DNA from: Salinisphaera sp. LB1
GTDB lineage: Bacteria; Pseudomonadota; Gammaproteobacteria; Nevskiales; Salinisphaeraceae
Reading direction: 5' to 3'
DNA: 64,000 nt
Assembly (NCBI RefSeq): GCF_003177035.1
Contig: NZ_CP029488.1
Location: 2,232,001-2,296,000 of the forward strand
In this document: one piece after another, positions 59,773 to 60,439 of the stretch
Position numbering within the stretch: position 1 is the stretch's first letter
Layout of the letters: every line of letters begins with the position of its first letter
Position numbers and translations under genes: made by a program
Notes under the pieces: model-generated
The model's input: the letters and a program-made list of their open reading frames with translations, nothing else
What the model was told of the DNA's origin: nothing
Databases searched by the model: none

Positions 59773-59928
59773 TTACTTGATCTTGGCTTCCTTGAAGACC
59801 ACGTGCTTGCGCGCCTTCGGGTCGTACTTCTTCATCTCGAGCTTGTCGGGACTGTTCCGCTTGTTCTTGTACGTGGTGTAGAAGAACCCGGTGTCCGCGG
59901 TCGAGACCATGCGAATTTTTTCGCGCAT
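59773..59928 (-). CDS. rpmG: 50S ribosomal protein L33
   Basis: 51 residues, read directly. [21 protein letters not shown] at the start and [19 protein letters not shown] at the end. This is the cysteine-free (zinc-independent) L33 form, as in E. coli. Its AGAGG ribosome site lies inside the terminal inverted repeat of the insertion between rpmB and rpmG. Confidence 0.97.
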
Positions 59929-59931
59929 TAT

Positions 59932-60203
59932 GGAACCTCTGATTTATTCGTACACGGATCGCGTCTGAGTCTCGAGCCGTTCGTCTGTGAGGCGCCCGGC
60001 GAAGCGCCGTGGCAGGACCCACGGTCGAGACGGGCAACGCTGCAGGCGGGCGGCTCGGGCCAGACCCTTCGGGCCGGCTTTGCGCGCGCGTCTGAGCAGC
60101 GTCATTCGTCGTTCATTTACTGTAAAGTAAACCTCTCTCCTCATTCCTCGCCAGACGCGCGCGCAAAGCCGGCGCGACCGCGTACGAATGAATCAGAGGT
60201 TCC
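59932..60203. mobile_element. MITE-like inverted-repeat insertion between rpmB and rpmG
   Basis: The segment has 22-base terminal inverted repeats, 59932-59953 and 60182-60203, with one mismatch (ends begin GGAACCTCTGATT). Inside it there is a second, perfect 22-base inverted repeat, 60073-60094 against 60152-60173, whose loop contains the near-palindrome TTTACTGTAAAGTAAA. No reading frame looks real. rpmB and rpmG are normally only a few bases apart, so 272 bases here look inserted. TA dinucleotides lie at or next to both ends, a possible target duplication. Confidence 0.65.
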
Positions 60204-60439
60204 TAAACCTTCTCCCCGCGCTTACGCAGATCGGCAAGCACGCTTTCGATGCCTTGACGGTCGATGATACGCATGCCCTTGGATGAAACCCGAAGACGCA
60301 CATAGCGTTGTTCGGCCTCAACCCAGAAACGGTGCCAGTGCAGATTGGGCACAAAGCGCCGCTTGGTCTTGTTGTGGGCGTGCGAAACGTTGTAACCGGT
60401 AATCGGCTTTTTGCCGGTTACCTGACAAATCTGGGACAT
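60203..60439 (-). CDS. rpmB: 50S ribosomal protein L28
   Basis: 78 residues. [21 protein letters not shown], then K-R-R-F-V-P-N-L and [13 protein letters not shown] are the L28 signature. CAGGAGATC ribosome site before the ATG at 60439. Its TAG stop overlaps the outer end of the inverted-repeat insertion by one base. Downstream rpmG is 274 bases away instead of the usual short gap. Confidence 0.97.

Follow-up and report, generated by a model that had tools for sequence, protein, structure and literature searches.

The ribosomal protein genes rpmB and rpmG of Salinisphaera sp. LB1, lying within the 64,000-nucleotide stretch of its genome analysed here (the window), are split by a 272-bp miniature inverted-repeat transposable element (MITE), probably a non-autonomous member of an IS5-type Salinisphaera family. 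Relatives of the element are present elsewhere, the targets of the family are of the YTAR type, and in the window one end of the element completes the stop codon of rpmB and the other carries the Shine-Dalgarno sequence (SD) of rpmG. Taking the evidence together, we consider it somewhat probable (roughly 0.55) that an IS5-type MITE landed at a YTAA in the rpmB-rpmG junction, was tolerated through the stop codon and SD it supplied, and forms a hairpin that keeps the two genes coupled in translation.

Insertion at the rpmB-rpmG junction

The first-pass annotation had placed the limits of the element exactly (Table 1), and had described 22-base terminal inverted repeats with one mismatch and a nested, perfect 22-base inverted repeat. 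Both descriptions hold within slightly longer structures: the terminal repeats extend to 26 nt at 92% complementarity, with the single mismatch in their outer 22 nt matched by 0 of 100 window shuffles, and the nested repeat (60069-60094 and 60152-60177) spans 26 nt at 96% complementarity, including a perfect 22-nt core. The plus strand of 59925-60210 folds at -173.4 kcal/mol (z -12.25), and none of 200 shuffles folded as well. The element encodes no transposase, the only ORFs of at least 40 aa wholly within it being of 66 and 47 aa. A consensus scan of the element found neither a promoter nor a terminator, and in an Rfam scan no family reached its gathering score; matches to a plant miRNA precursor family (E 0.00057, 27.9 of 88 bits) and to a nematode snoRNA (E 0.23) were both far below the cut-off and were judged to be chance resemblances between hairpins.

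Table 1. The element and its surroundings; positions are those of the window unless a genome and contig are given.
Feature	Position	Strand	Remarks
MITE, 272 bp, in the sense of the rpmB-rpmG transcript	59932..60203	-	Absent at 11 of 13 readable congeneric junctions; copies elsewhere
5' terminal inverted repeat; CCTCT (60199-60195) pairs with the rpmG SD	60178..60203	-	
3' terminal inverted repeat, bearing the rpmG SD	59932..59957	-	
AGAGG, SD of rpmG, 7 nt upstream of the ATG	59936..59940	-	
Arm A of the Y-shaped fold, containing the nested inverted repeat	60073..60173	-	
Arm B of the Y-shaped fold	59963..60065	-	
Remnant of the left target site, TTTA; empty sites point to an ancestral YTAA	60204..60207	-	Now unlike the right side
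Right target-site remnant ATAA, overlapping the rpmG ATG	59928..59931	-	
rpmB (L28), TIGR00009; TAG stop ends on base 1 of the element	60203..60439	-	NCBIfam, Pfam
rpmG (L33), NF001860	59773..59928	-	NCBIfam, Pfam
Arm B-sharing repeat (L305-L308)	G000:C1:1861667, 1894961, 158121, 1692071		

When the rpmB-spacer-rpmG region was searched against 61 genomes, congeners proved to have both genes without the spacer, and spacer-like stretches were found elsewhere. Fourteen Salinisphaera genomes were considered, that of the window being G000; one (G010) gave no match, leaving 13 readable junctions. In 11 of these the stop codon of rpmB overlaps the start codon of rpmG (nine TAATG, two TGATG); the element occupies this position in just two, the window's genome and G009. 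The spacer is not common to the relatives, and the proposed identity as a MITE is borne out by the 11 congeneric empty sites, the related copies elsewhere and the 4-bp target duplications of the family. The first-pass annotation had also recognized the AGAGG of rpmG in one end and the overlap of the other end with the rpmB stop; both are confirmed from the sequence, the last base of the TAG (60205-60203) being base 1 of the element. That the element supplies the ribosome site of rpmG is likewise supported, the ancestral purine tract in the end of rpmB now lying ~270 nt away. Insertion would have occurred at YTAA within the overlapping TAATG; the present flanks, TTTA and ATAA, are not identical and are taken as a decayed YTAA.

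Whether the two occupied junctions descend from a single event is a nearly balanced question. In a tree of the elements, the copies of the window and G009 group together (92/89), and the branch lengths of the elements (0.11 and 0.29) are similar to those of the species (0.155 and 0.297), as predicted if one old insertion had been followed by three precise losses (in G006, G001 and G013). However, a species tree built from the RNase HII region of 12 genomes (without G007 and G010) pairs G000 with G006 and G009 with G013, each at 100/100, so that the sister species of both carriers have an empty site and the minimum on this tree is two changes; moreover, the pairing of the window and G009 copies loses resolution once three partial copies (L090, L304 and L096) join the element tree. 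A single insertion is a possibility that we rate a little under even, against two independent insertions.

The family, its target sites and its placement at stop/start junctions

A profile search of the fetched loci, with an end filter, yielded at least 52 full-length copies including that of the window, a number that overstates the independent insertions, as L142 and L157 share flanks and the pairs L106/L107 and L159/L160 look like orthologues. Partial copies were excluded by the end filter, and of these just L090, L096 and L304 were put in a tree. The ends of the element, which the first-pass annotation had suggested seeking elsewhere, occur mainly in congeners. In its own genome, a DNA search with the element returned this copy and its own inverted halves only, and a second, divergent copy (L304, about 3770896-3771184) surfaced with queries from relatives; no plasmid copies were found at E 1e-5. 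Identical 4-mers flank 25 of the 52 copies (TTAG 13, CTAG 5, TAAA 3, CTAA 2, TAAG 1 and ATAG 1), and 20 of these 25 exact duplications are of the YTAR type (TTAG, CTAG, CTAA), given as the target motif of IS5 in the relevant passage of PMC10359306.

Further indication of an IS5 affinity comes from a Roseomonas MAG contig (L216), on which a gene for an IS5-family transposase (NF033581, E 2.2e-100) stands beside the same terminal repeat; the left end matches, the right end is imperfect and the flanks show no matching duplication. Transposases of PF05598 are present in 10 of the 14 Salinisphaera genomes (19 matches), and were rejected as autonomous partners, with single near-matches to the element end nearby and no flanking pair of ends. 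The L216 transposase itself matched only two fragments (48-50% identity) and weaker sequences, in 4 of the 14. Across all 14 genomes, the searches turned up no intact autonomous partner bearing these ends. Nor was a recognisable transposase ORF seen by eye near four pattern matches outside the Salinisphaera records (L189, L198, L203 and L208).

Other repeats were noted alongside the family. The window's own genome carries two 359-aa transposase genes of IS5 type (L166 and L176; G000:C1:84636 and 2758649), with inverted ends GGCGCTGCTGAAA and TAA- or TAG-like flanks. In Dyella sp. SG609 (L186, 1031-1192), the same terminal repeats recur as a shorter pair bounding a 162-bp segment, the left end of which directly follows the TAG closing an ORF that is presumably coaD. 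Arm B of the element also occurs in a second palindromic repeat, which has different ends; the shared part is ~105 bp long, with 73-76% identity in the four copies of the window's own genome (Table 1), and many more matches in congeners (G013, G009 and others) are among the matches listed.

In the element tree, the copy of the window falls in a six-row clade that includes G009 (100/99), with L089 next (95/83). These seven copies all lie between co-directional genes: rpmB-rpmG in the window and G009, hisA-hisF (L146), a RimB-like gene and rimK (L147, with the RimB model below its cut-off and Pfam Zn_protease above), argS and a SPOR-domain gene (L148), rpsN-rpsH (L149) and nqrC-nqrD (L089, the upstream gene being probably nqrC, judging from its FMN-binding domain beside nqrD). 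A scripted stop/start rule, applied to the 52 copies with an upstream ORF of at least 70 aa and a downstream ORF of at least 50 aa in the same orientation as in the window, was satisfied by 7/7 copies of this clade versus 7/45 outside (Fisher 2.6e-5), and in either orientation by 7/7 versus 17/45 (Fisher 0.0026). With limits of 100/100 aa the values were 5/7 and 5/45 (p 0.0017), the drop within the clade resulting from the shortness of L28 and L33. Empty counterparts of the junctions are also known: TAATG in G003, G005 and G007 for argS and the SPOR-domain gene, TGA plus five bases before the ATG in two congeners for the RimB-like gene and rimK, and gaps of 14-24 nt between aligned flanks in three congeners for hisA-hisF, where the end of hisA appears changed.

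Outside the clade, Pfam-supported genes stand on both sides in 5 of the 45 copies. In the opposite orientation, L091 (G008:C22) separates a methyltransferase gene from that of chorismate synthase, with the ATG 1 nt past the element, and L106 (G012:C10), of which L107 (G011:C66) is a near-copy by its flanks, separates zipA from ligA, with a GTG 3 nt past the element; in these three, an AGAGG or GGAGG of the terminal repeat lies 5-7 nt from the start of the gene for chorismate synthase or NAD-dependent DNA ligase. L159, with its near-copy L160, lies between permease and racemase genes in the same orientation as in the window, with the ATG 20 nt past the element. When the 15 rule-positive loci outside the clade (without the near-copies L107 and L160) were compared with Pfam, families were found on both sides in L091, L106 and L159 alone; L097 has a family downstream only, a D-Ala ligase with its ATG 3 nt past the element, and in the others at most one side matches a family, which means that chance ORFs may be among them.

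Addition of the three partial copies produced a nine-row clade (94/81) taking in L096 and L304 and leaving L090 outside. In these nine rows the 3' end of the element lies 2-5 nt ahead of a start codon, or 21 nt in L149. L096 (G002:C95, ~821-1043) has a small hairpin instead of arm A; both of its neighbours are complex I- or hydrogenase-like genes, and the copy follows directly on a stop codon, with a GTG 2 nt beyond its other end. In L304 a BamE-domain gene starts 5 nt downstream, and the ORF upstream, which we take to be recN, ends ~120 nt short of the element. All nine rows share one orientation (binomial 0.004, or 0.008 if the window and G009 are counted once), a bias to which we attach little weight because both orientations occur at junctions outside the clade. 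The stop/start habit, on which the first-pass annotation had not touched, is therefore family-wide, strongest in the clade of the window and workable in both orientations, as the likeness of the two ends permits; for the same reason, a copy landing just before any start codon gives it an SD. Tolerance of such insertions would arise when a YTAR target regenerates a TAA or TAG stop on one side, or the TGA of the repeat itself closes the frame, and the opposite terminal repeat brings AGAGG, AGGGG or a similar motif to 5-9 nt from the start codon.

The same facts could describe an ordinary MITE surviving wherever nothing breaks, with a hairpin devoid of any regulatory role: YTAR targets contain stop codons, and the stop/start insertions might simply be those that were not purged. 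Consistent with such passive survival, the window's genome holds only this copy and the divergent one, only a minority of the other 45 of the 52 copies occupy family-supported stop/start junctions, and the junctions outside the clade show both orientations. However, the concentration of junction placement in the window's clade (7/7) and the single orientation of its nine-row extension speak for more than passive survival, and we regard a mere passenger as rather unlikely.

The covarying palindrome and the proposed coupling

The entire element, and not only the repeats described in the first-pass annotation, is a covarying palindrome. For 25 chosen copies, RNAalifold returned a single Y-shaped structure of 95 pairs, 62 of them with compensatory change. 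Pairing was retained in 95.2% of the cells; shuffles averaged 80.6%, and sliding the partners by 1-3 columns left 30-43%, a control that flatters the structures because they were derived from those same alignments. Among the seven copies nearest to the window, 45 of 100 pairs were changed on both sides, a value reached in 0 of 500 shuffles.

What maintains the complementarity is less clear-cut. Over the whole structure, G-U cells outnumber A-C cells (80 versus 55), with 34 of the G-U cells in two columns of arm B. By stem, the counts are 13 versus 18 in the outer stem, 23 versus 8 in arm A and 44 versus 29 in arm B, the last becoming 10 versus 29 when the two columns are set aside, at which point G-U no longer exceeds A-C overall. 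Without a consistent excess, these counts do not carry a purely RNA-level reading of the covariation, and for the fold itself selection on RNA is no more likely than a constraint on the DNA or template switching. Template switching between the palindrome arms during replication, by a mechanism described in the abstract of PMC8794818, would keep the complementarity as a mutational product with no selection on RNA; we place its chances just short of even. It would account for the inconsistency of G-U over A-C among stems and for the observation that a copy often departs from the others at several corresponding positions of both its terminal repeats, but arm A by itself favours G-U, and unpaired stretches are partly conserved too. 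Moreover, most copies outside the clade lie off family-supported gene pairs and yet keep the fold, indicating that it is not shaped for coupling alone.

In the proposed coupling, the element would fold away in the mRNA as a Y-shaped hairpin, bringing the stop codon of rpmB and the start codon of rpmG side by side, with the SD paired to the bases directly past the rpmB stop. A ribosome that terminates on rpmB would open the stem at its base, allowing translation of rpmG to follow and keeping the coupling over ~270 nt. In predicted folds of the seven clade transcripts, the probability of the SD being unpaired was at most 0.003 in six, its partners lying right after the upstream stop. Upon removal of the 12 nt past the stop, the predicted value rose to 0.28 in the window and 0.60 in G009, and to 0.52, 0.21, 0.13 and 0.06 in the others, the release being weak in L146 and L147; in L149, where the SD lies outside the element, predicted exposure was 0.41 before and 0.45 after removal. 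A terminating upstream ribosome would, on these models, free the SD only in part, and the pattern of pairing and release fits ribosome-gated coupling. The earlier suggestion that the hairpin sets the L28:L33 ratio is only consistent with such folding models. A wider generalization, on which we are doubtful, is that the family constitutes a portable intercistronic module that inserts where stop and start codons overlap or lie close together, completes or contributes a stop codon and, in either orientation, contributes an SD, and by its foldback would unlock the downstream start and keep coupling over ~270 nt.

A serious alternative to coupling, by analogy with other repeats, is that the hairpin is an RNA-processing site, at which RNase III would cut the long stem, or a site for RNase E would be exposed, splitting the rpmB and rpmG messages so that their stabilities set the ratio. 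The stems are long and nearly perfect, and precedents are described in passages of PMC10969869 for Correia and of PMC2229807 for ERIC; cleavage at the stem base would, however, also hit the strand bearing the SD, and we hold such processing to be improbable.

Comparison with known repeats and significance

The family resembles IS5-family MITEs in its terminal inverted repeats, lack of transposase, 4-bp duplications of the YTAR type and an end apparently shared with an IS5-family transposase gene, but differs in that no intact autonomous partner with these ends turned up in the 14 genomes of the genus, in its covarying three-way palindrome and in its frequency at stop/start junctions. Like ERIC of enterobacteria, for which an orientation-dependent, ribosome-induced change in the RNA is reported (PMC2229807), the element is a palindromic repeat co-transcribed with neighbouring genes; ERIC is, however, 127 bp long with TA at its ends, and the effect reported for it in the corresponding passages is exposure to RNase E and decay of upstream mRNA, not supply of a ribosome site. 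The Correia or NEMIS elements of Neisseria also form MITE hairpins in transcripts, which are cut by RNase III according to the passage on them in PMC10969869, but they have TA at their ends and reported promoters and IHF sites, whereas no promoter-like site was found in the present element. The Chunjie MITE of Geobacter is similar as described there, having inserted in an operon. Closest in one respect is the pneumococcal BOX, which supplies the stop codon of a gene in 36 cases (PMC3049150); BOX consists of modular repeats of another family, and the passages concerned mention no supplied SD.

The titles and abstract openings of the open-licence papers listed by our searches describe no MITE that supplies a ribosome site at stop/start overlaps, and the main text of the MITE review PMC10969869 is without mention of ribosomes or stop codons. 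We found no description of the present family in the literature searched. It stands out by an unusually complete covarying palindrome and by repeatedly occupying stop/start junctions, features whose functional consequence is putative. With this family one could ask whether selection or template switching makes long palindromes covary. Finally, the operon junctions that nature provides here, some with related insertions and some without (rpmB-rpmG, argS and the SPOR-domain gene, hisA-hisF, rimB-rimK, rpsN-rpsH, zipA-ligA and others), would allow direct measurement of what it costs to split closely coupled genes and of how the split is rescued.
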